Of a stretch of DNA of 64,000 nucleotides, positions 12,550 through 57,052 are shown piece by piece; the first letter of the stretch is position 1; each line of letters starts with the position of its first letter. The position numbers were made by a program, and so were the translations under genes. Below the pieces are notes generated by a model. That model searched no databases. It worked only from the letters and a program-made list of their open reading frames with translations, and was not told the DNA's origin. The stretch lies in assembly GCA_002304345.1 (NCBI GenBank), contig NEUU01000001.1, positions 1 through 64,000 on the forward strand. Reading direction: 5' to 3'. Source of the stretch: Verrucomicrobia bacterium Tous-C9LFEB. GTDB lineage: Bacteria; Verrucomicrobiota; Verrucomicrobiia; Methylacidiphilales; UBA1321.

Positions 12550-12882
12550 AAATTTAACGTCCTTTAAAGCGCAACATCACGCCTGCCGAAAGGCCGGAGG
12601 GCAAGCAAAAAGAGGTCTGATACGGAGGCCGACTGGAAAGATTGTGGGATGGCTCAGGGCCAAAGTATTAAAATGGTTATAACTCACCGCAAATAAAAAC
12701 AGACACCTTGCGGTCTTGGATAAGGCGGGAGTTTGGAACTCCATTCCGCTCTCTAAACCCAAGACACACACCGCGGCGCTCACGCGCCACCCCAAAAAGA
12801 TCGTAAACAGACTCTGAGGGAGGGCGCTTAAGATTGGACAGGAGAATGGGGCGGCGCTATCGATATTTCTGATACTTTTTTT
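12550..12882. other. Divergent intergenic region between TerC and ROK genes
   Basis: 333 bp presumably holding both promoters. AAAAAGATCGTAAACAGACTCT at 12795-12816 recurs at 21676-21697 as GAAAAGATCGTAGACAGGCTCT, a minor repeat of unknown meaning. No open frame with recognisable content lies here. The ROK start is preceded by an AT-rich stretch without a clear SD. Confidence 0.4.
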
Positions 12883-14149: not shown

Positions 14150-14290
14150 GCGATAAAAATTTCGAAGGCGAAGTGTGTTTGGTTCTATTATTAAACACTG
14201 TTGACAAATTCGGGATTAATGCCATTGTCGGGATAGTGGCGGTGATTATTCCTGCGAGAAGAATAGCTAAACTGAACCCCGATTTTTCCG

Positions 14291-15073
14291 ATGTGTAAGT
14301 ACCTTTGTGCCATGATGCCTGCCGAGACCCCAGGGCGTGTCGGACCCTCCTCCTTTGGGGACGGGGCTTTGCGCGGTCGACACACGGCGCGCGCTTTCAC
14401 GTTGCTCGAGCTTCTCGTGGTGGTGTCGATCATCGGCTTGCTGGCGGTGATGTCGGTGCCCGGAGTCAAGCGGGCGATGGGCTCGGTGAAGCAAGGGCAA
14501 TGCGCGTCGAACCTGCGTCAGATCGGGACTGGGCTCATGCTTTACGCTTCGGACAATGATGGCACGTTTCCGATGGATAACGATCCGGCCAAGGCCTCGC
14601 TTTATCAGGCGGCCTTCTGGTCGTCGGCAATCTGGACTTACGTGGGCTACCCGGCGTCCAAGTTCTCCTATCCCGAGAACGATGTGCAGGGAAACGTGGG
14701 TGCGGACAAGAATATGTTCCATTGTCCGGTGACGAAGTATTATCCCAAGAGCAAGTTCAAGGAAATCTGCGTACCCACCTCATGGAATGTGACGAACCGG
14801 CTTTCCTACGCGATGAATACCACGCCGTCGCGTACGGCCTTTGGTACGGGCAATGTTCCCATCAAGATGGCGATGATCAAAACACCCACTTCAACGGTCC
14901 TTGTGATCGAGCAACATGAGGAAGGTGGCGATCCGTGGTCCTACCATCAGGCGTTCGGCTTAATTCCGCATCGGGGCGGTTGTAACGTGTTGTTCTATGA
15001 CGGGCATGTGGACTGGTTCTTGTACAAGGACATTCCCACGACGACCGGGACATCCTTTTGGGGCGGTCTCTGA
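14291..15073 (+). CDS. Prepilin-like secreted protein with H-X9-DG C-terminus
   Basis: 260 residues. A class III prepilin leader ends in ARAFTLLELLVVVSIIGLLA (about residues 34-53), where the Phe after Ala is the methylated N-terminus and the Glu the conserved E5. The globular part closes with PHRGGCNVLFYDGHVDW, the H-X9-DG motif shared by very large pseudopilin families in Planctomycetota and Verrucomicrobiota. The function of these proteins is unsettled; many are single genes beside polysaccharide-degrading enzymes, as here. It is followed within 26 nt by the secreted protein gene and then a glycosidase gene. ATGs at 14312 and 14315 are alternative starts. Confidence 0.82.
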   Translation: MCKYLCAMMPAETPGRVGPSSFGDGALRGRHTARAFTLLELLVVVSIIGLLAVMSVPGVKRAMGSVKQGQCASNLRQIGTGLMLYASDNDGTFPMDNDPAKASLYQAAFWSSAIWTYVGYPASKFSYPENDVQGNVGADKNMFHCPVTKYYPKSKFKEICVPTSWNVTNRLSYAMNTTPSRTAFGTGNVPIKMAMIKTPTSTVLVIEQHEEGGDPWSYHQAFGLIPHRGGCNVLFYDGHVDWFLYKDIPTTTGTSFWGGL

Positions 15074-15098
15074 ACGTGGATTTAACCTTATCGATTTT

Positions 15099-15887
15099 AT
15101 GAAACGGATTACATCTCTTCGGTCACTTCGAAATGGTATTACCCTGCAGCTTCGTTTGCTCTTGTTCTGCGCCTTGCTGGGGCTCATCGCCAACGCCCCG
15201 GCGGAGGAGTTGAAACTGGGGCGGGACGTGACGGTGGTGTTTAACAACTTTGGCGCGATTGAAAACGTCACGTCGCAAAAATCGTTGTTGCTGGGCAAGT
15301 GCGTATTGACGGCGCGGTCGGCGAATCAAAAGACCGGGATGTTTCAGGATTGGTCCACCGTTCTCGGCAATAAGGTGAAGTGTGAGCTGAACGGAGACGA
15401 GATGGAGGCGGTGGGCGCGTTGGTGCTGAAGGAGAGTCCGAAGACGCCGCAGATCGAATTCAAAGTGAAGTACAAGAAGAAGGCGGAAGGGGTGTTGTCG
15501 ATCCAGGTGGAGGCGACCTTGCTGCAGGACGATAAGTGGGTGGAGCCGCTCTTCTTTCATCTGCTTTTTCCGACGTCGATTTATCAGGATGCCGTGGTGA
15601 CTCTGGAAGCGACGAACGGCACGGAGAAAAGTTATACGATTGGCGCGCAACCACTCGACATGCGCACGTATGGATCGCGCAAAGTGACGGTGACGAAGGG
15701 TAGTCAGAAGATAGTGGTAACGCCGTCGGAGACGACGCAGGTCAGTGCGTTGGACGGGCGGGCATGGGGCGGGGCGTATATTCGCGTGGACTGCGGCGTA
15801 CGGCGCAGTTGGGCGCAGGCGGTGCCGCTGAGTGGTGGTCAAAAGGAAGAGTTCGAAGTGACGGTCGCGTTCACGAGCGAAGAGTAA
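15099..15887 (+). CDS. Secreted protein of unknown function in glycosidase operon
   Basis: 262 residues starting at ATG 15099 (MKRITSLRSL), which gives a signal peptide with the hydrophobic core LRLLLFCALLGLIANAPA. The mature part is Lys- and Thr-rich with alternating hydrophobic residues, suggesting beta-sandwich folding, and holds a single Cys pair. No domain was recognised. It lies 26 nt after the pseudopilin and 24 nt before the GH-like gene, so it is very likely co-transcribed. Carbohydrate binding would fit the context but is a guess. Confidence 0.7.
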   Translation: MKRITSLRSLRNGITLQLRLLLFCALLGLIANAPAEELKLGRDVTVVFNNFGAIENVTSQKSLLLGKCVLTARSANQKTGMFQDWSTVLGNKVKCELNGDEMEAVGALVLKESPKTPQIEFKVKYKKKAEGVLSIQVEATLLQDDKWVEPLFFHLLFPTSIYQDAVVTLEATNGTEKSYTIGAQPLDMRTYGSRKVTVTKGSQKIVVTPSETTQVSALDGRAWGGAYIRVDCGVRRSWAQAVPLSGGQKEEFEVTVAFTSEE

Positions 15888-15911
15888 TTTTTGGTCACAC
15901 GAAAGACCAAT

Positions 15912-18224
15912 ATGAACGTGGCTTGTCATGTCTTGGGACTGGTGTTGTTGCTGACAGGAATGCTCCGGTTGTCGAGCGGGGCGGAATCCACTCCGTGGGT
16001 GGCCACGGCGAACGAGGAGTGGAAGGCGGCGGATCAGGGGGAGATCGAGGTAGTGCCGGGCTCGGCGCTGGATTTATCGAGCGTATTTCCACCGCCACGC
16101 GAAGCGGGCGCGGATGGTTTCTCGATGGTCAATGCGAAGGGTGATTTGGTTTTTACCAATAAGCCGGAAACCGTGGTGCGCTTCCGGTGCGTATCGGCAA
16201 CGCCGAATCGTGGCACGGTGCCGACGGCGGCGATGTTGACGAATGAGGAGTGCGACCGTTACGCGGATCAGTTGGTCCGGGGTGGGTTCAATGCGTGCCG
16301 ACCGCATTTTCTGGATCTCGCGTTGATGCATGGCAGCGCGGAAGACCTGGTGATGAATCCGGAGCGGCTCGACCGGTGGGATTATTTTACGGCGGCGCTG
16401 AAGAAGCGTGGTGTTTATTTATATATCGACGCGATGACGGCTCCGTCGAGTTACTACGCGGTGTCTGATCCGTGGAGCAAGGAGGCCAACGCGAAGAATC
16501 TTTCAACGCGGCTTTATTACGATGAGACGGCGCGCGCGCATTGGCGGGAGGGCGTGAAGCGGTTCTTTGAGCATGTGAATCCGTACACGGGCGTGGCGCT
16601 CAAGGATGAGCCGCAGGTGTTGGTCGTGCAGTTGCGCAATGAGTCGGGGTTGAACTTCAAGATGTATTTCCCAAACAGCGTGACGCCGGGAATCACGGAG
16701 GCGTTTCGGTCCTGGCTGAAGCAGCGTTACGGGACGACGGAGAATTTAAAGAAGGCCTGGACGCGTCCTGATGGTGACGCGCAGTTGTCGTTCCTGAAAG
16801 CGGGTCAGACGCTGGAGACGGTGGCGTGGCCGCGTTTCGACGGGCGCGGGCCGGACTCGCGCGATTTGCAGGCATTCTTTACGGATATCGAACGCGAGAC
16901 GACGGCATGGATGACGAAAGCGATTCGTGAGATCGGGGTGAAGGTGCCGCTGATCGAATACAATGTGGGGTACTCGCTGCAGACGTCACTGGCACGCGAT
17001 ATGATGCCGGTGGTGGACAATCACGCGTATCATGATCATCCGACGAAATACATCACGGAGGGTTCGAGCATCAATGGGACGAGTTCGACCCAGGGTGGCG
17101 TGACCTATTTTCAATTCATGGCGGGGACACGTCAATTGGGGCGTCCCTTTTTCTGCTCCGAGTGGGGGCATGTGTTCTGGAATCCATGGCGGCATGAAGC
17201 AGGCTTGACGTTGCCGGCCTATGCGTCGTTGCAGGGCTGGCAATTTGTCACGCAGTTTGCGCATCCGGTGCACCTGAGCAGCCGTTCGCCGATCAAGTCG
17301 TTCGCGATTTACAACGATCCGCCCCTGCGCGCGGCGGAATATATGTCGGCTTTTTTCTATCGACGCGGAGATGTGCGGGAGTCGCCGCACACGATCGAGG
17401 TGGTGATCGATCCGGCAGCGCTTCCGGAAAAAGTGTCGCTGCAGGATGCGCTGCCCGCATCGATCTCGCGGCTCTCGCTGCTGGCGCGTTTGGGCGTGCG
17501 GGTGGCGGAGTGGCCCGGGGCGGCGAAACGGGGCGTGTATCAAGCGGATTGGTCTCTGGTTCCGAACGAGGGGGAGAAGGTGTCGACCCGGGACGGCGTG
17601 CAGGAAATTCTGGAAGGCGGGAAGAGCGCGGGTTCAGATTTCAATCGCTGGGTGACGCAATTGCGGGAGAAATCCATCCTGAGCGCGGACAATGCAACGG
17701 ACGCCGCGCGGGGAATTTACGAGAGCGATACGCGCCAGATTTTGCTCGATGAGATGCAGCGGCAGATTCGGGTGGTGACGTCGAAAAGTCTCGGTGTAAG
17801 TCTGCCTCAAGGCGGTCCAGAAATGAAACTGGGCCCGGTTCAGGTGCGTAATCTCGGAGTGGACGCGACGTTCTTTGTCGGGTCGTTGACGGCGCAACCG
17901 GTGCCGGAGAGTTCGCGGTTGCTGCTGGTGGTGGGGACGGATGCGCTCAATACGGGCATGACTTTCACCGATGAGCGGAAGCTGAAATTGGTTTCGCTGG
18001 GGACATTCCCGGCATTGCTGCGCGTGGCGAAAGTGCAATTCAGTCTGACGCACCAGCAGGCGAATCGCTTGAAGATGTGGGCGCTTAGCGCGAACGGACA
18101 GCGACGGGAGGAAATTCCGCTGACGGTATCCGGTCAGACGGTGAGTGCGCTGATTGATACGGCCATCTTGACCAATGGGCCGACTCCGTACTTCGAATTG
18201 CAGGAGCAAGTAGCGGAAAAATAG
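15912..18224 (+). CDS. Secreted glycoside hydrolase-like protein (GH-A clan barrel)
   Basis: 770 residues with signal peptide MNVACHVLGLVLLLTGMLRL; an upstream in-frame start adds seven residues. The central region reads as a (beta/alpha)8 barrel. QLRNESG places an Asn-Glu pair (E244) at the end of a strand, the usual acid/base of clan GH-A. PFFCSEWGHVF (E417) is the probable nucleophile. DNHAYHDHP lies between, as in GH42/GH5-like enzymes. The C-terminal 250 residues look like beta-sandwich domains. The family and substrate are not assigned. Third gene of the run that begins with the pseudopilin; the GH2 enzyme is convergent 57 nt beyond. Confidence 0.75.
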   Translation: MNVACHVLGLVLLLTGMLRLSSGAESTPWVATANEEWKAADQGEIEVVPGSALDLSSVFPPPREAGADGFSMVNAKGDLVFTNKPETVVRFRCVSATPNRGTVPTAAMLTNEECDRYADQLVRGGFNACRPHFLDLALMHGSAEDLVMNPERLDRWDYFTAALKKRGVYLYIDAMTAPSSYYAVSDPWSKEANAKNLSTRLYYDETARAHWREGVKRFFEHVNPYTGVALKDEPQVLVVQLRNESGLNFKMYFPNSVTPGITEAFRSWLKQRYGTTENLKKAWTRPDGDAQLSFLKAGQTLETVAWPRFDGRGPDSRDLQAFFTDIERETTAWMTKAIREIGVKVPLIEYNVGYSLQTSLARDMMPVVDNHAYHDHPTKYITEGSSINGTSSTQGGVTYFQFMAGTRQLGRPFFCSEWGHVFWNPWRHEAGLTLPAYASLQGWQFVTQFAHPVHLSSRSPIKSFAIYNDPPLRAAEYMSAFFYRRGDVRESPHTIEVVIDPAALPEKVSLQDALPASISRLSLLARLGVRVAEWPGAAKRGVYQADWSLVPNEGEKVSTRDGVQEILEGGKSAGSDFNRWVTQLREKSILSADNATDAARGIYESDTRQILLDEMQRQIRVVTSKSLGVSLPQGGPEMKLGPVQVRNLGVDATFFVGSLTAQPVPESSRLLLVVGTDALNTGMTFTDERKLKLVSLGTFPALLRVAKVQFSLTHQQANRLKMWALSANGQRREEIPLTVSGQTVSALIDTAILTNGPTPYFELQEQVAEK

Positions 18225-18249
18225 ACGATTGTTTGGATCGCCAAACGGT

Positions 18250-18274
18250 GCGCTCATGTCGACGGCATGAGCGC
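18250..18274. terminator. Hairpin between convergent glycosidase genes
   Basis: GCGCTCATG (18250-18258) and CATGAGCGC (18266-18274) form a perfect 9-bp stem with a 7-nt loop. The position between two converging genes suggests a shared terminator, but neither side has a T run. Confidence 0.45.
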
Positions 18275-18281
18275 CATTTCA

Positions 18282-20543
18282 TTACACCGGTACGCTGATC
18301 AATTCCCGGCTGGGGATGCGTGCGGGATGTGCGGCGCGCGGCTTGGTCAAGGAACGAATGGTGATCGTAAGCTGCTGCGTGGCGAGTCGCGGCGTGGAGG
18401 CCGTCACGACAACTCGACCCGCCCGCCGTGTGGTGCGAAGGTAAAGCGCTCCACGACCAGCGGGCATGGGAAAAGGATTGTCGCCGACGAGTTGGGCGGG
18501 GCCCTGGATGGTGACGGTGACGGGTTGCGAGGCGTAGGGCAGAAAGTTGCCATGGGCATCGGTGATCGACAGGGAGAGCCGGGTCATGTCTGCACCATCG
18601 GCCAGGAGTTCAATGTCATCCGCCATCAGGCGTAGCCGGGCGGGAATGCCGTCGTCTGCCACGAGATGTTCGATCACCGCGCGGTCGCCGATGTAGCCGA
18701 TCAATTGCAGCGATTTCCAATGCGAACCCCAGAGGCTGCCCAGCCCGGAGAAGATAAAGGGCGGGTGTTCCAGATGCGGATACTGAGCGCAATCGGGGAG
18801 GGCGGTGGCGCGATATTCGGAGCCGACGTAGGCTTCGATTCTTTCCACATTGCTGAAGACCACGAGATGTTCCGGGGAGTCGCCATTGCGATCACCCATT
18901 TTCCAGTAGGTGGCAGGTTCGAGGACGAGGCGTTGAGCCGGGGAGATTTGCGACGCATAGAAATGCGCGGCGATTTTGGGTTGGCGGAAGATATCCATCA
19001 CGCCGTGATAACAGATGCGGTCTCCGGACCCGAAGCCGGCGTGTGTGTTGTAGTCGAACGCACACCAGCCGATGCCACCGGCGGATTTCAACCCGCCGAT
19101 GAGATTGTGGGTGCGGGCATGGCGCAGCGCGTGCTGGATGACGCGTTCTTCCGAATCAAACGATTTGGTCGGGAACATGTGTCCGCAGAATTCGGTGTTC
19201 AGATAGCGGGCGGCCTCGGGCGATTTCAGGTCGTAGCCGAAGTCATTCATTGTGTAGACGTCCTCGAGCAACTCGCTGTTCCAGATGCAGCGAATGCCGC
19301 CGGTCGGGCGCGTCGGGTCGAGCTGCCGTGCGAGCGCGTTGGTGCGGACGTAGAAATCGTGATGATCGGGCGATTCATTGATGCGCACGCCCCAGAGAAT
19401 GATGGAGGGATGATTGCGGTCGCGCACAATCATGGCTTCCACGTCGCGGACAGAAAGGTCCTGCCAGGCGCGGTCGCCGATGTGTTGCCAGCCCGGGATT
19501 TCCTCGAGGACCAGCAGGCCGAGCTCATCGCAACGATCGAGAAAATGGGGCGACTGGGGATAGTGGCTGGTGCGAACGATGTTGCAGGCGAGATCATACT
19601 TGAGAATTTCCGCGTCCTTGCGCTGCAGGCGGGCCGGTGCCGCCGCGCCGATGTACGGAAAGGTTTGATGCCGGTTCAAGCCGCGCAATTTGAGGGGACG
19701 GCCATTCAGATAGAATACGCCATCGTCGCGAAATTCTGCCTGCCGGAAGCCGATCCGAGTCGAGAGGGCGTCACCCTGATCGAGGGTTGCGCGAACTTGA
19801 TAAAGAGTCGGTTGGTCAATGTCCCATAGCTCGATATTCGAGAGAGATTCCAGCGCGAGCGTGACGGTGGTTTCCGCTTGCGCGGGCAGAGCTACGGAGC
19901 GGCGCTGGGTGTGGAGAACCTCACCCGACATGCGGCAGAGAGCAATGGTCAGATTATGTGTCTGAGCACGGTCCGTGGTGTTGGCCAGTCGAACGTCGAC
20001 GTCGAGCCGTTTCTGGGGAGAGAGCGCATTCCCCGGCTTCGCGAAGAGATTGCAGATATAAACAGGAGCCACCGCACGCAGATGCACCTCGCGGTAGATG
20101 CCGCCGAAGGTGAGGAAGTCCACCATCCCGCCGAACGGAGGAATGTCGGAGCGCTCACTGGAATCGACCCGCACCTCGATCAGGTTGTCCTCCCCGAAAT
20201 GAACGAGTGCGGTGATCTCGTAGGAGAAGGGAGTGAATCCGCCGCGATGCTCCGATCCGGCGGCGTGTCCATTCACATAGAGCGTGGCGGCGGTCATCAC
20301 GCCATCGAAATCCAGGAAGAGGCGGCGTCCCCGCAGGGATGCCGGGATCTTGAGCGTCTTGCAGTACCAACTGACAAACGCGAATTCCTTCTCGCTAAAG
20401 TTGTGATAGGGCAATTCTACATTTGTGTGCGGAAGGCTGACGCGCACCGGGGGGAGGGGATCGGGACCGGAGGTCGAGACAGAACGAATATCGTAGGTGT
20501 AGTAGAGCCAGTCCAGATTGAGATTTTGAGTCAGACGTTGCAT
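18282..20543 (-). CDS. Glycoside hydrolase family 2 enzyme (beta-galactosidase/glucuronidase-like)
   Basis: 753 residues, no signal peptide, so probably cytoplasmic. Domain order is that of GH2: sugar-binding jelly roll (about 1-160, with YVNGHAAGSEHRGGFTPF), an immunoglobulin-like domain (about 165-270), the TIM barrel (about 275-560) and C-terminal beta domains. IVRTSHYPQSPHFLDRCDEL is the GH2 signature 1. The acid/base is E390 in WGVRINESPD, where the common WSxGNE is altered. The nucleophile is E451 in NTEFCGH. The exact glycoside is unknown. It sits convergent to the secreted glycosidase and close to the ROK regulator. Together these look like a small saccharide-utilisation locus without its own transporter. 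Confidence 0.87.
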   Translation of the reverse strand: MQRLTQNLNLDWLYYTYDIRSVSTSGPDPLPPVRVSLPHTNVELPYHNFSEKEFAFVSWYCKTLKIPASLRGRRLFLDFDGVMTAATLYVNGHAAGSEHRGGFTPFSYEITALVHFGEDNLIEVRVDSSERSDIPPFGGMVDFLTFGGIYREVHLRAVAPVYICNLFAKPGNALSPQKRLDVDVRLANTTDRAQTHNLTIALCRMSGEVLHTQRRSVALPAQAETTVTLALESLSNIELWDIDQPTLYQVRATLDQGDALSTRIGFRQAEFRDDGVFYLNGRPLKLRGLNRHQTFPYIGAAAPARLQRKDAEILKYDLACNIVRTSHYPQSPHFLDRCDELGLLVLEEIPGWQHIGDRAWQDLSVRDVEAMIVRDRNHPSIILWGVRINESPDHHDFYVRTNALARQLDPTRPTGGIRCIWNSELLEDVYTMNDFGYDLKSPEAARYLNTEFCGHMFPTKSFDSEERVIQHALRHARTHNLIGGLKSAGGIGWCAFDYNTHAGFGSGDRICYHGVMDIFRQPKIAAHFYASQISPAQRLVLEPATYWKMGDRNGDSPEHLVVFSNVERIEAYVGSEYRATALPDCAQYPHLEHPPFIFSGLGSLWGSHWKSLQLIGYIGDRAVIEHLVADDGIPARLRLMADDIELLADGADMTRLSLSITDAHGNFLPYASQPVTVTIQGPAQLVGDNPFPMPAGRGALYLRTTRRAGRVVVTASTPRLATQQLTITIRSLTKPRAAHPARIPSRELISVPV

Positions 20544-20760
20544 GAAAGTAGGAGATGTTCGGCGGGTTAATTTTATATTAAACTAAGTTGTATAATAATT
20601 CACAAAGAGCATTTGTAAAGAGAATGTGATATTGCGGGAAATCGACTCGGGGGAGGTATCTTTCAGGTGTATTCGCAAGAACAACGAAAAAGAGCTTGCT
20701 GATTTTTCGGGATGAGATACATTTATTAAAGAAAGTTTAATAAGAAAGGTGCCCGTTTCC

Positions 20761-21570
20761 ATGAAATCATCCTCCTTCCATCGTGTATGCCTCTGGGGCC
20801 AGACGCTGGCCGTTCTCTTTGTGCTGGCTTTTGCCGAATCCACGGCGAATGCCCAGGTGCTCTATCAGCAGGTGTTTGGTAATTCGAGCGGCGGCTATGC
20901 GAGTTTGTCGGGTCAGGGGATCGACTGGAAAAGCTATTTTACGACATGGAACTGGGCGTTGGGCGTGGGTTGGGCCGGAGTGGGGTTGGCAGGATCGGCT
21001 TCGCTCACTACGACGGATGACAATTTCGGGGTGGCGCTGCCGGCCAATGCGACAAGCTTGACGATGGGCAAGTTCACCACCTCGGGCGGTGCGCAGAATC
21101 AGATGTCCCTCTACACCACTTCGCTGACGCTCGATCCCGCTTCTTATGGTGGACTGCAGTTCAGCTGGTATCAGCAGGGATTGACGGATTACACGCGAGT
21201 GCTCATTCGTGTGGGCACCGTTTGGTACCTGTCGGTGCAGCAGTTTGTCTCGCCCACGCTCTCGCAGCAGACCTTCACCTACACGGCTGACAACGATAGT
21301 TGGCTGGTATTGGGAACTGGCACGGGCAGTAATGGTGGCACCGACCCGTACAATGCCAATGTGCGCACTTTATCGACGGTGGCCGCCGCGGATCTGACAG
21401 GACCGATCAACGCCTTTGGTCTCTACATGGATACCGCTTCGGCGAACTATCTGTCGGTTGATACATTTGCTGTCACGGCGATTCCCGAGCCGTCTGCCGC
21501 GCTCTCGCTGGGTGTCGGCTTGGTGGGGTGGATCGCGCTGACGCTGCGTCGCAAGCACGCTTCGGCATAA
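20761..21570 (+). CDS. PEP-CTERM sorting domain protein
   Basis: 269-residue exported protein. It has a signal peptide (VCLWGQTLAVLFVLAFAEST, then ANAQ) and a Gly/Ser/Thr/Tyr-rich body typical of extracellular matrix proteins. The C-terminal sorting signal is IPEPSAALSLGVGLVGWIAL followed by TLRRKHA: a PEP box, one helix and a basic end. It is a predicted substrate of the exosortase encoded at 55490. The chosen ATG has AAGAAAGGTG about 10 nt upstream; a GTG within that sequence would add only four residues. The body resembles no named domain. Confidence 0.88.
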   Translation: MKSSSFHRVCLWGQTLAVLFVLAFAESTANAQVLYQQVFGNSSGGYASLSGQGIDWKSYFTTWNWALGVGWAGVGLAGSASLTTTDDNFGVALPANATSLTMGKFTTSGGAQNQMSLYTTSLTLDPASYGGLQFSWYQQGLTDYTRVLIRVGTVWYLSVQQFVSPTLSQQTFTYTADNDSWLVLGTGTGSNGGTDPYNANVRTLSTVAAADLTGPINAFGLYMDTASANYLSVDTFAVTAIPEPSAALSLGVGLVGWIALTLRRKHASA

Positions 21571-49082: not shown

Positions 49083-50174
49083 CTAACTAAAGAAACCACT
49101 TTTCTTGGCCTTGAGATTATTGATGCGATTGGGATCGCGGGCGTTGATGAGCGCTTCTTCCTTGGTGATGAGACCTTTTTCGAGCAACTCGATGAGGCTG
49201 TCATCAATGGTGTGCATGCCTTCGCGGCTGCTGATTTCCATGAGGCCGATCATCTGCTCGCCGCGACGGTCGCGCAGGCAGGCGCGGATGGCGTTGTTGC
49301 AGACCATGATTTCGGTGGCGAGGACGCGACCCTGGCCGTCGGCGCGGGGGAGTAATCGCTGCGAGACGACGGCCTGCAGACAGTTCGCCAACTGGGCGAG
49401 GATTTGCGGCTGTTGATCGGGCGGGAAGCTGTCGATGAGGCGGTCGAGCGCCTTGGGCGCGTCGATGGTGTGAACGGTGGCGAGGACGAGGTGGCCGGTT
49501 TCCGCCGCACTAATCGCGGTCTGCATCGTTTCGCGATCGCGCATTTCGCTGATCATGATGATGTCCGGGTCCTGCCGCAACGCATGGCGCAGCGCGATGG
49601 GGAAGCTCTTCGTATCGGTGCCGAGCTCGCGCTGTTTCACGAGCGAGAGGCGATTCTCGAAAATGAATTCGATGGGGTCTTCGACGGTGATGATCACGCC
49701 CGAACGCTGGCTGCCGATGTGCTGGATGATGGATGCAAGCGTGGTCGTCTTGCCGGAACCGGTGATGCCGGTGAAGAGGATGAGACCTTGCTCGAGGTTG
49801 CACAGTTGCAGCAGGAACGGACGATGGCCGAGATTCTTGATGTCGGGAATTTCGCTGGGGATATGGCGGAAGGCGGCTTCGAGCGAACCGCGCGAGTAGT
49901 GGGCGTTGCCGCGAAAACGGCCGAGTCCGTCGACCTGCAGGGCGAAGTCGAGCTCCCATTCTTCTTCCAGCCGGGCGCGTTGATTTTCCGTGAGAATACC
50001 GAGGATGAGATCGCGGCAGTTGTCCGCGGTGAGATTGTATTCGGCGAGGGGAACGAGCGAACCGTGCAGTCGCGCCATGGGCGGCGAGCCGACGGCGAGG
50101 TGGAGATCGGAGGCGGAGCGGTTGACCGTCTCGGTGAGGAAGTAGACGACATCGAGGACGTTTTCGTTGGCCAT
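49083..50174 (-). CDS. pilT: PilT-type pilus retraction ATPase
   Basis: 363 residues. The order of motifs is that of PilT: N-terminal PAS-like part (SASDLHLAVGSPPMARLHG), Walker A TGITGSGKTTT, Asp box (ITVEDPIEF), Walker B DPDIIMISEMRD, His box TGHLVLATVHT and the AIRAC segment of the C-terminus (CNNAIRACLRDR). It would power type IV pilus disassembly. Family C repeat C5 lies between it and the pilU-like gene upstream. The ATG has no SD; the repeat arm ends 12 nt upstream of it. No other pilus assembly genes are in this window. Confidence 0.9.
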   Translation of the reverse strand: MANENVLDVVYFLTETVNRSASDLHLAVGSPPMARLHGSLVPLAEYNLTADNCRDLILGILTENQRARLEEEWELDFALQVDGLGRFRGNAHYSRGSLEAAFRHIPSEIPDIKNLGHRPFLLQLCNLEQGLILFTGITGSGKTTTLASIIQHIGSQRSGVIITVEDPIEFIFENRLSLVKQRELGTDTKSFPIALRHALRQDPDIIMISEMRDRETMQTAISAAETGHLVLATVHTIDAPKALDRLIDSFPPDQQPQILAQLANCLQAVVSQRLLPRADGQGRVLATEIMVCNNAIRACLRDRRGEQMIGLMEISSREGMHTIDDSLIELLEKGLITKEEALINARDPNRINNLKAKKSGFFS

Positions 50175-50363: not shown

Positions 50364-51434
50364 TCAGGATTTGACCGTTGAACCGCTGGAGATGCCGCGC
50401 AGGACGCGGCTGAGTTCATGCGGATTTTCACAATACTGCAGCGCGACATCCTGATGGATGACGCCCGATTGCACTTCGGTGGCCAGGGAGGTCAGGAAAG
50501 AGCGCGAGGTGGCGTTGTCGCCGCGGGCGATGATGTCGGAGAGTTCGGGGTTGCGACCGTCCTGAATGTATTTGCGGCTGAGACCTTCGTTCTGGAGATA
50601 TTCGAGAACGGGGATGAGTCCGCCTTCCTTGGTGGGGACAAGTTGCTGGCAGAAGACGCCGACAAGTTGGCTGCTGAGAATGCGCTGGGCACCTTCGCGG
50701 TCGGTGGCGGGGAAGATCTGGACGAAGCGTTCGATCGTTTCCGCGACGTTCGCGCTGTGCAGTGTGGTGACGACGAGGTGGCCGGTCTCGGCCGCTTGCA
50801 GGGCGGTGGAGGCAGAGGCGTAATCGCGGATTTCGCCGACGAAAATCACGTCCGGACTTTGGCGCAGGGAGCGGCGCATGCCTTCGGCAAAGGAGTCGGT
50901 GTCGATGCCGACTTCGCGTTGGCTGAAGAGGCAGGCTTGATTCTGGAAGAGGTACTCGATGGGATCTTCAATGGTGACCACGTGTCGCGGCGTGTGCTCG
51001 TTCAGCCACTGGAGGCAAGAGGCGATGGTGGTCGATTTGCCGGAGCCGGTGCGGCCCGCGACGAGGAGGAGTCCCGCCGGACGGGAGACCCACGTGGTGA
51101 GCAGTTCGGTGGGCAGTCGGAGTGTGCCGAGATCGGGAATGGTGGTCTTGATTTCGCGCAGCACCGCGCCGCGACGGCCGAGGGTGCGGAAGAGATTGAC
51201 GCGGAAACGGCCGCCATCGGACGCGCAGAAGGCGGTGTCGCGGTCGAGGGTGGACGCGCTCGCGCCGCATTCGAGCCAGAATTGTTCGAGCAATTCGGGA
51301 GCCAGCGTGCTGTCGCCGAGATCCATCAGTTTGCCGTTGAGCCGGATTTGCGGCACGCCGCCTTCGTAAAGGAAAAGATCCGAGGCCTGATTGGCGCGCA
51401 TCGCGATGCAGAGTTTGTCGATGAGTTCGACCAT
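50364..51434 (-). CDS. pilU: PilU-like second retraction ATPase
   Basis: 356 residues, homologous to the neighbouring PilT but clearly diverged. Walker A is AGRTGSGKSTT; Walker B is SPDVIFVGEIRD; the His box is TGHLVVTTLHS. The N-terminal part is ASDLFLYEGGVPQIRLNG. PilU works as an accessory motor to PilT in several species. It is transcribed first, with pilT after the repeat; whether one mRNA spans both is unknown. The PilU label rests on arrangement and divergence and is tentative. Confidence 0.85.
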   Translation of the reverse strand: MVELIDKLCIAMRANQASDLFLYEGGVPQIRLNGKLMDLGDSTLAPELLEQFWLECGASASTLDRDTAFCASDGGRFRVNLFRTLGRRGAVLREIKTTIPDLGTLRLPTELLTTWVSRPAGLLLVAGRTGSGKSTTIASCLQWLNEHTPRHVVTIEDPIEYLFQNQACLFSQREVGIDTDSFAEGMRRSLRQSPDVIFVGEIRDYASASTALQAAETGHLVVTTLHSANVAETIERFVQIFPATDREGAQRILSSQLVGVFCQQLVPTKEGGLIPVLEYLQNEGLSRKYIQDGRNPELSDIIARGDNATSRSFLTSLATEVQSGVIHQDVALQYCENPHELSRVLRGISSGSTVKS

Positions 51435-55489: not shown

Positions 55490-57052
55490 ATGAGCGAACA
55501 GATGGGGTGGAGACGAGAGTGGCCGACCTTGGCGGGGTTGACCGTTTTGGGCTCGCTCTGGCTTTTTCTGGTGAACCAACTGCGTGTCGAGTGGTCGGTG
55601 AATGAGCAGTACAATTATGGCTGGTTCGTGCCGGGGCTGTCGCTCTACCTGTTCTGGGAGGCGTGGCAGACGCGACCGGCGGCGACACCGCCCGCTTCAA
55701 AAAAAGGATTGGGACTGGTGCTCGGTGGCTTGTTGATTCTGTTGCTGCCCGTGCGGTTGATGTTGGAAGCGAATCCCGATTGGCGTCCGGCGAGTTGGGT
55801 GCTGGCAATTCTGGTGGTGGGGATCACGTGGTGCGGACTTTACGCGCGCGGGGGAGTTCCGTGGTGGCGGCACTTTGCGTTTTCCACCGCGTTCATTTTG
55901 ACGGCGGTCCCATGGCCGTCGGTGATCGAGCAACCGCTGGTGCGGGAATTGATGAACTGGGTGGCGACGTTCAGCGTGGAGTTGCTCACGTGGCTGGGCA
56001 TCCCGGCGCAGGCGCGTGGAAATGTGATCGCGTTGCCCGGACAACTGGTCGGTGTGGACGAGGCGTGCAGCGGGGTGCGCTCGTTGCAGACGATTCTCAT
56101 GGCCGCACTCTTCTTGGGGGAGGTCTACCGACTGTCGGTGAAGCGGCGCGGTTTCCTGCTCGCGTTCAGTCTCGGACTGGCCTTCGTGGCGAATGTGGCG
56201 CGGGCTTTTGTGCTGGTGTGGATCGTGGCTCACGAAGGAGCGGCGAATTTGAGCAAGTGGCATGACCCGATTGGGTACACCGTCTTGATCGTTTCACTGG
56301 CAGGCGTCGCCGCGCTGGGACACGCGTTGCGGAACCGGACGGCTGTGAGCGCTCCTGTCGTGGAACCGCAGGTTGGAACAGAACGGTTGTTTACTCCCGC
56401 AATGGGTTCTCCGCGCGTGTGGGGTGCGATTTTTATCTGGCTTCTGGTTATCGAAGGAGCAACGGACGCGTGGTATCGCTGGCATGAATGGCATGCGGTG
56501 CAGGCGATGCCGTGGAGTGTGCAGTTGCCGACCGGCGCGGAGCAATTTCGGCCTGTGAAGTTGAGCGAGGTGGAATCTCGGCTCCTGCGGGTGAATCGCG
56601 TGGAAGCGGGCGCGTGGCTGGACTCCGGTGTGGAGGTGATGACCTATTTTCTGCGTTGGGAACCGGGCCGTACGGCGGCGCAATTGGCACGGTTGCATCG
56701 TCCGGAAATTTGTCTGCCGTCGGCGGGCTGCTTTCTGCGGTCCAATGAAGGCACGTGGATTGGCGAAGCGAATGGTGTGACGCTGCCGTTCCGGCAACTC
56801 GTGTTCGATTTCAACCGAACGCCTCTCTATGTCTTCTACTGTCTGCGCGAAGACCGGGTGATCGAAGGCGCGGAGGCCGGGGAAGATTGGTCGATTCGCA
56901 GCCGGTGGCAGGCGATGATCGAAGGCCGCCGGAATCAGGGGCAGCAAGTGCTCGAGGTGATTCTTCGCGGACCTCAGGACTCCTCGCAGGCCGAGGAGAT
57001 CATGCGTCGGCTCCTGCCGGTTTTGGTGAAAGCCGCACCGGTCAAAAATTGA
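55490..57052 (+). CDS. Exosortase fused to EpsI-like domain
   Basis: 520 residues from ATG 55490. The N-terminal half (about 1-285) is a multi-helix exosortase with the triad C193 (VDEACSGVRSLQT), R238 (NVARAF) and H258 (WHDPIGYT). It is predicted to cleave and anchor PEP-CTERM proteins. The C-terminal half (about 315-520) is an EpsI/DUF3485 domain recognised by HRPEICLPSAGCF and VFDFNRTPLYVFYCLR. Fusion of the two is common in exosortase systems. A substrate is encoded at 20761. A weak TTGTAT/TATGGT promoter (55456-55483) would place the transcript start at or very near the ATG. An upstream in-frame start is less likely. Confidence 0.9.
   Translation: MSEQMGWRREWPTLAGLTVLGSLWLFLVNQLRVEWSVNEQYNYGWFVPGLSLYLFWEAWQTRPAATPPASKKGLGLVLGGLLILLLPVRLMLEANPDWRPASWVLAILVVGITWCGLYARGGVPWWRHFAFSTAFILTAVPWPSVIEQPLVRELMNWVATFSVELLTWLGIPAQARGNVIALPGQLVGVDEACSGVRSLQTILMAALFLGEVYRLSVKRRGFLLAFSLGLAFVANVARAFVLVWIVAHEGAANLSKWHDPIGYTVLIVSLAGVAALGHALRNRTAVSAPVVEPQVGTERLFTPAMGSPRVWGAIFIWLLVIEGATDAWYRWHEWHAVQAMPWSVQLPTGAEQFRPVKLSEVESRLLRVNRVEAGAWLDSGVEVMTYFLRWEPGRTAAQLARLHRPEICLPSAGCFLRSNEGTWIGEANGVTLPFRQLVFDFNRTPLYVFYCLREDRVIEGAEAGEDWSIRSRWQAMIEGRRNQGQQVLEVILRGPQDSSQAEEIMRRLLPVLVKAAPVKN

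Follow-up and report, generated by a model that had tools for sequence, protein, structure and literature searches.

What is the task of a secreted protein of no described family whose gene lies between those of a pseudopilin and a secreted glycoside hydrolase? This question is raised by a locus in the first 64,000 nt of contig NEUU01000001.1 (Verrucomicrobia bacterium Tous-C9LFEB), a stretch that we refer to as the window. Four genes lie in series on its plus strand and encode a ROK-family regulator (ROK), an H-X9-DG pseudopilin (PIL), the secreted protein in question (UNK) and a secreted hydrolase of clan GH-A (GHA). A GH2 gene on the minus strand converges with GHA. The gaps are 178 bp from the end of ROK to PIL, 25 bp between PIL and UNK and 24 bp between UNK and GHA, and the stop codons of GHA and GH2 are 57 bp apart. 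Gene calls, checked with Pfam and NCBIfam (TIGR) profiles against their cut-offs, put all five where a first-pass annotation of the DNA had placed them. A sixth gene, for a PEP-CTERM protein (PEP), is part of the set although it lies outside the interval 14291-20543 that this annotation covered. Signal-like N-termini are present on GHA, UNK (where it is hydrophobic) and PEP, and are absent from GH2 and ROK. From sequence comparison and a structural model we suggest, with moderate confidence, that UNK is a free-standing accessory subunit of GHA. To the whole model, a locally regulated glycan-degradation unit with UNK as a subunit of GHA, PIL-linked secretion and a shared operator, we give a probability of about 0.5.

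The unit itself is real and conserved. In the sister genome HJP_bin11 one stretch encodes relatives of ROK (78% identical), PIL (69%), UNK (50%), GHA (78%) and GH2 (75%), all in the same direction, and two copies of PEP (60-61% identical) stand beside this cluster. The sister GH2 gene is inside the operon after GHA, with its ATG about a dozen bases past the GHA stop codon; that of the window is inverted. Such a joint recurrence of ROK, PIL, UNK, GHA, GH2 and PEP is more than chance. The genome comparison proposed by the first-pass annotation for a conserved trio of pseudopilin, secreted protein and hydrolase thus found all five genes and the PEP-CTERM protein together in the sister, the only other genome of the order with UNK.

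No family of Pfam, NCBIfam or PHROGs fits UNK of the window, nor does any Pfam family fit the six UNK proteins that were searched. An ACP-like Pfam match of 14 bits was rejected, since the cut-off is 27.5. A search of the UNK profile against the sequences of solved structures returned nothing. An AlphaFold2 model of UNK from six sequences gave an all-beta supersandwich with a mean predicted local distance difference test (pLDDT) score of 87.1 and a predicted template modelling score of 0.82. The top Foldseek matches are the putative aldose 1-epimerase 3nre (the best, E 4.8e-8), the periplasmic domain of YidC and a GH2 beta-galactosidase. VIA-align ranks domain 5 of the LacZ type from GH2 beta-galactosidases first (Z 18.3, root mean square deviation 2.9, 203 residues aligned), with a PL26 lyase and mutarotases near Z 16-17. 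The model thus indicates a galactose-mutarotase-like beta-supersandwich that is close to LacZ domain 5. Though the fold is common to both, UNK has only 12-13% identity to LacZ domain 5, the Pfam model of this domain (small subunit) matches none of the six UNK proteins, and the partner of UNK is a secreted GH5/GH42-like enzyme, not a GH2 enzyme. Across 11 members, distant ones included, residues Q83, P158, D219 and R221 do not vary, and a D-x-R-x-(W/F) motif is the mark of the family.

Since a putative epimerase is the best Foldseek match, UNK could itself have an enzymatic role, as an aldose epimerase for the sugars freed by GHA. The active site of GalM has conserved histidines and a glutamate. 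Though the mutarotase fold is present in the UNK model, these catalytic histidines are not: the family alignments hold no invariant histidine, which makes an epimerase unlikely. In addition, YidC and LacZ domain 5 match equally well, so the fold alone does not imply an enzyme. We regard this explanation as highly improbable.

What favors a subunit of GHA is a domain fusion. The 3546 open reading frames (ORFs) of 79 loci that encode GHA relatives were searched with a profile built from UNK and from distant relatives of it. Below the true members, the weak matches of this profile fall almost solely in the N-termini of long GHA proteins and share the motif of the family. When 15 of these fused N-termini were aligned and compared with UNK profiles, hhalign gave probabilities of 96.9 and 97.5% over about 145 columns, which correspond to the C-terminal half of UNK; the control with a ROK profile gave 0.3%. 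A model of the fused domain finds 25 GHA ORFs, of which 15 had been used to build it, and three other ORFs, one of these being the UNK of locus L039. In the GHA tree, 25 of the 89 GHA ORFs carry an UNK-like N-terminal domain. They occupy 23 rows of one clade and two rows elsewhere, and the clade of the window (12 rows) is outside the main fused clade. An UNK-like domain is also fused to a different, otherwise unassigned GH-A-like enzyme of 699 aa (L033:124-2220, minus strand; genome G223), for which a GH30-like match has an E-value of only 0.079.

The first-pass annotation had suggested that UNK and PIL may act with the hydrolase at the surface, possibly to capture saccharides. On this reading the two would supply the hydrolase, and UNK would bind saccharides on its own. 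Supersandwich folds are often sugar-binding, UNK and PEP are predicted to be secreted, and the set is conserved in the sister, all of which would suit such a role. However, nothing found makes UNK a capture protein by itself. No lipid or anchor signal is seen on UNK, and PIL combines a pseudopilin leader with the conserved H-X9-DG tail and has no binding domain. The fusion of an UNK-like domain to GHA in relatives, together with the fold of UNK, points to an accessory subunit of the hydrolase and not to an independent capture protein. We thus replace the capture reading, which we consider unlikely, and favor a subunit. A separate UNK would act in trans, as LacM does in the two-subunit LacL/LacM enzymes.

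There are eight UNK genes, in the window genome and its sister. Five of them lie immediately beside a GHA-family gene, and the remaining three beside some other large glycosidase-like gene. Four have a pseudopilin gene as a direct neighbor, and the regulators vary, with ROK at some loci and LacI at others. Across the phylum the UNK profile finds 6 of 387 genomes, this one included, and the distant matches are weak. Eight distant loci were examined, and five have an ORF that matches UNK at E <= 1. Four loci of the phylum (L029:1495-2247, L032:1489-2277, L035:1495-2247 and L037:1084-1833) encode secreted proteins of about 250 aa that are distantly UNK-like and keep D-x-R-x-W; those of L029, L032 and L035 adjoin long GH2-type or similar genes. 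We also observed very large secreted proteins (1240-1340 aa) with a motif of the type FSDTFENG at the start near UNK and pseudopilin genes (L024:11741-15463, L025:3370-7098, L023:14290-18306), the one in L024 having Ig and fn3 domains.

The proposed partner, GHA, has profile matches to GH5 mannanases and GH42 and is assigned to clan GH-A by its modeled TIM-barrel fold and its invariant catalytic residues. The Pfam GH42 profile (PF02449) scores 27.1 bits against a cut-off of 21, but covers residues 222-291 only and does not run along the barrel. The Glyco_hydro_42M (trimerisation) and Glyco_hydro_42C domains have no match in GHA at E 1, and a true GH42 enzyme in locus L133 matches all three profiles. 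The GHA model (pLDDT 91.7) is a GH-A barrel whose nearest folds are GH5 mannanases (8gf3, Z 24.5, 310 aligned), the TAV5 mannosidase 7bob (Z 21.5 over 379), GH42 and GH164. Though GHA shares this fold and these profile matches with the GH5_7 mannanases and mannosidases (including Op5Man5 of Opitutaceae TAV5, 7bob), GH42 and GH164, it has 14% identity to them and lacks the trimerisation and C-terminal domains of GH42; by these tests it is in none of these families. All 29 aligned relatives keep N243-E244 and E417. We take the N-E pair to be the acid/base and the second glutamate to be the nucleophile, and with both catalytic glutamates kept, GHA is probably active. Our best guess for the substrate is a beta-mannoside or beta-galactoside.

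PIL fits the profiles for the prepilin N-terminus (TIGR02532, 23.5 bits; cut-off 16.3) and the H-X9-DG tail (TIGR04294, 23.2; cut-off 19). DUF1559/SBP_bac_10 (PF07596) stays just below its cut-off (23.0 against 23.3 bits) and covers an N-terminal fragment only. A same-strand pseudopilin, recognized by a motif script, adjoins GHA in 30 of the 79 loci (28 directly, two with UNK between). This is a lower bound, given the motif-based recognition and several contigs that end beside the gene, and the 49 loci without such a neighbor stay in the total; for other ORFs of at least 300 aa in the same loci the count is 32 of 471. Over 31 pairs (the 30 loci and the window) the distances between PIL proteins correlate with those between GHA proteins (r 0.75; 0 of 5000 permutations). 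Much of this correlation is common descent. The pairing of PIL and GHA is old and frequent but need not be a strict one-to-one matching.

The genome carries genes for T2SSE ATPases and one prepilin peptidase. Two neighboring T2SSE/PilT-type ATPase matches are in the window itself, at 49278-49814 and 50634-51167 (minus strand), about 30 kb from the unit. Pseudopilins are able to assemble fibres, and since PIL varies between loci together with GHA, it might, without any part in export, build a thin fibre at the surface on which the enzyme is carried outside the cell. However, no fibre genes are evident in the operon, and the ATPases and the peptidase are encoded elsewhere in the genome. We consider a fibre very unlikely and favor a role in secretion. 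In Verruconatronum alginivorum (Opitutales), a PulG-like pseudopilin in an alginate operon (pgaptmp_000046-60) is upregulated on alginate with alginate lyases, 67 homologues are counted in the genome, and type II secretion of the lyases is proposed (PMC13274419). That pseudopilins occur in saccharolytic operons of Verrucomicrobiota has thus been published before (PMC13274419). That operon resembles the unit in having a pseudopilin inside a verrucomicrobial saccharolytic cluster, but it has polysaccharide lyases instead of GHA, and the part of the report consulted describes no UNK, ROK regulator or palindrome (PMC13274419). What is new here is UNK. A literature search, with subscription papers and preprints outside its coverage, found no paper that names this family or describes the fold, the pairing with GHA or the fusion.

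The regulator is a ROK protein with a ROK domain (PF00480, 25.0 bits; cut-off 22.9), an N-terminal winged helix (HTH_24, 32.4; cut-off 21.9) and a match to PDB 2hoe (2.3e-14). It has lost the kinase phosphate motif, as the first-pass annotation had noticed, and the zinc motif CxCGxxGCxE is absent as well. A search of 286 genomes of the class finds eight relatives at E <= 1e-25, in three of these genomes. Both motifs are absent from all eight, and an HD pair is kept at what we take to be the catalytic position. The zinc motif is typical of the ROK family, and the loss of kinase motifs is ordinary among ROK repressors. The lost zinc motif is the less usual feature. Since it is absent in eight of eight members, we assign the protein, on its sequence, to a zinc-less ROK subfamily. 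Mlc, NagC and Lmo0178 likewise combine a winged helix with a ROK domain, but the subfamily differs from these repressors in lacking the zinc motif. Each of the eight members shares a stretch of about 19 kb with a pseudopilin gene, which in two cases is about 15 kb away.

A 17-bp palindrome, ATTAAACNNNGTTTAAT, is found with one to three mismatches upstream of PIL, GH2 and PEP, and is likely, judging from the DNA sequence, to be the operator of these genes. Copies lie in both regions (14.1-14.3 and 20.5-20.75 kb) that the first-pass annotation proposed for a gel shift with the ROK protein. Conservation is partial: the PIL and PEP sites, two of the three, are kept in the sister. The sister PIL site is inside an identical block of 23 bp in an alignment with otherwise about 50% identity (119 of 222 columns), and such a run occurred in 0 of 10000 shuffles. 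In the three-row alignment of the PEP site the second PEP copy is misaligned, and a gap splits the conserved block, by which the longest identical run (14) is understated. The window has 5 matches against 0.77 expected, which is no independent test as the pattern was derived from three of its sites. In the sister stretch there are 3 matches against 0.28 expected, a partly independent count since the stretches share descent; one of the three (15919) is inside the PEP coding region. A three-mismatch copy at 12552-12568, between TerC and ROK, is possibly an autoregulatory site or chance. Pairing of the palindrome with the ROK protein is inferred.

The features of the locus are collected in Table 1. 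GH2 has four GH2-type domains over their cut-offs, among them PF02836 (96.4 bits), PF02837 (50.3) and PF00703 (39.5). The PEP-CTERM signal of PEP is borderline, with TIGR02595 at 16.5 (cut-off 16) and Pfam PF07589 at 17.9, below its cut-off of 20.7. The genome encodes two exosortases, one in the window at 55556-56326 on the plus strand (PF09721, 6.6e-45) and a second on contig 4.

Table 1. Genes and putative operators of the unit, in window coordinates.
Feature	Position	Strand	Basis
ROK-family transcriptional regulator, 409 aa	12883..14112	+	PF00480, HTH_24, match to PDB 2hoe
Putative operator ATTAAACACTGTTGACA, 5' of PIL, overlaps a TTGACA hexamer	14190..14206	+	Within the 23-bp block identical in the sister; link to ROK inferred
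PIL, H-X9-DG pseudopilin, 260 aa, class III prepilin leader (ARAFTLLELL)	14291..15073	+	TIGR02532, TIGR04294
UNK, secreted, 262 aa, predicted beta-supersandwich, signature D-G-R-x-W; proposed accessory subunit of GHA	15099..15887	+	Model, fold search, alignments, profile-profile match
GHA, secreted clan GH-A glycoside hydrolase, 770 aa	15912..18224	+	Pfam GH42 match, invariance of N243-E244 and E417, fold
GH2, cytoplasmic beta-galactosidase-like enzyme, 753 aa	18282..20543	-	Four GH2-type domains
Putative operator ATTAAACTAAGTTGTAT, 5' of GH2	20577..20593	.	Two mismatches to the palindrome; the sister, with GH2 inside the operon, has no such separate site
Putative operator ATTAAAGAAAGTTTAAT, 5' of PEP	20725..20741	.	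Kept in the sister
PEP, secreted PEP-CTERM protein, 269 aa, predicted exosortase substrate; start at ATG 20761	20761..21570	+	TIGR02595, sister copies, exosortase genes

Several findings weigh against our model. UNK is present in 2 of 62 genomes of the order, both of one genus (2 of 12 of the family), and a third genome of the genus, 79% complete, has none. PIL next to GHA is widespread; the trio with UNK is narrow. The fused and separate forms are apart in the GHA tree, so a simple split is not supported; the match between UNK and the fused domain spans about 145 of 262 columns, and E-values with single sequences are poor (0.0039). The palindrome is not enriched genome-wide, with 63 matches against 96 for the reversed pattern in this genome and 75 against 116 in the sister. 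A genome-wide regulon was rejected on these counts, and our claim is limited to the local sites. The palindrome is also absent from the paralogous loci L023 and L024, its two matches in L025 are both genic, and two further matches in the window, at 626 and 12552, are unexplained. As for secretion, the motif search finds no adjacent PIL in 49 of the 79 GHA loci, and the correlation of PIL with GHA is weak when taken inside single genomes (r 0.62, 28 pairs; 243 of 5000 permutations as high). The last two points, with the 13 H-X9-DG proteins encoded in this 4.28-Mb genome, would also suit a loose neighborhood, in which scattered pseudopilins and glycosidases have come together by chance or are merely co-regulated, with no dedicated machine. 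However, 13 such proteins amount to only about 0.06 per 20 kb, yet the sister has the same set of six genes, and PIL is next to GHA in the 30 loci. A loose neighborhood is therefore improbable, and we retain the model of a dedicated unit.

We hypothesize that this unit works as follows. GHA would be exported together with UNK. UNK would bind GHA and complete its active site or dock substrate there, as LacZ domain 5 does in LacZ. GHA would most likely cross the outer membrane by a type II secretion machine in which PIL, a pseudopilin kept with it, is a component specific to the locus. The PEP-CTERM protein, surface-anchored by an exosortase, may help to hold substrate or enzyme. Freed oligosaccharides would enter the cell, where the cytoplasmic GH2 enzyme would finish them. 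By way of a single type of palindromic operator, the ROK protein would keep the PIL-UNK-GHA operon, the GH2 gene and the PEP-CTERM gene repressed. An inducing sugar, possibly not the one bound by the zinc-type relatives of this protein, would release it.

Verrucomicrobiota, Lentisphaerota and Planctomycetota degrade much polysaccharide, often without SusCD-type loci, and they carry unexplained crowds of pseudopilins. The unit is a small testable case of this, in which a single enzyme comes with a linked pseudopilin, a predicted operator and a proposed accessory subunit that has a fused counterpart in other bacteria. In a wider and more doubtful view, UNK may found a family of detachable supersandwich subunits, fused or encoded by a neighboring gene, of a new clan GH-A family in bacteria of the Planctomycetota-Verrucomicrobiota-Chlamydiota group. 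Each pair of enzyme and subunit might then have its own cargo-matched pseudopilin, and one type II secretion machine could be tuned to many glycans by pseudopilin swapping. If UNK is indeed an obligate subunit, recombinant tests of GHA-family enzymes without it would fail or mislead.

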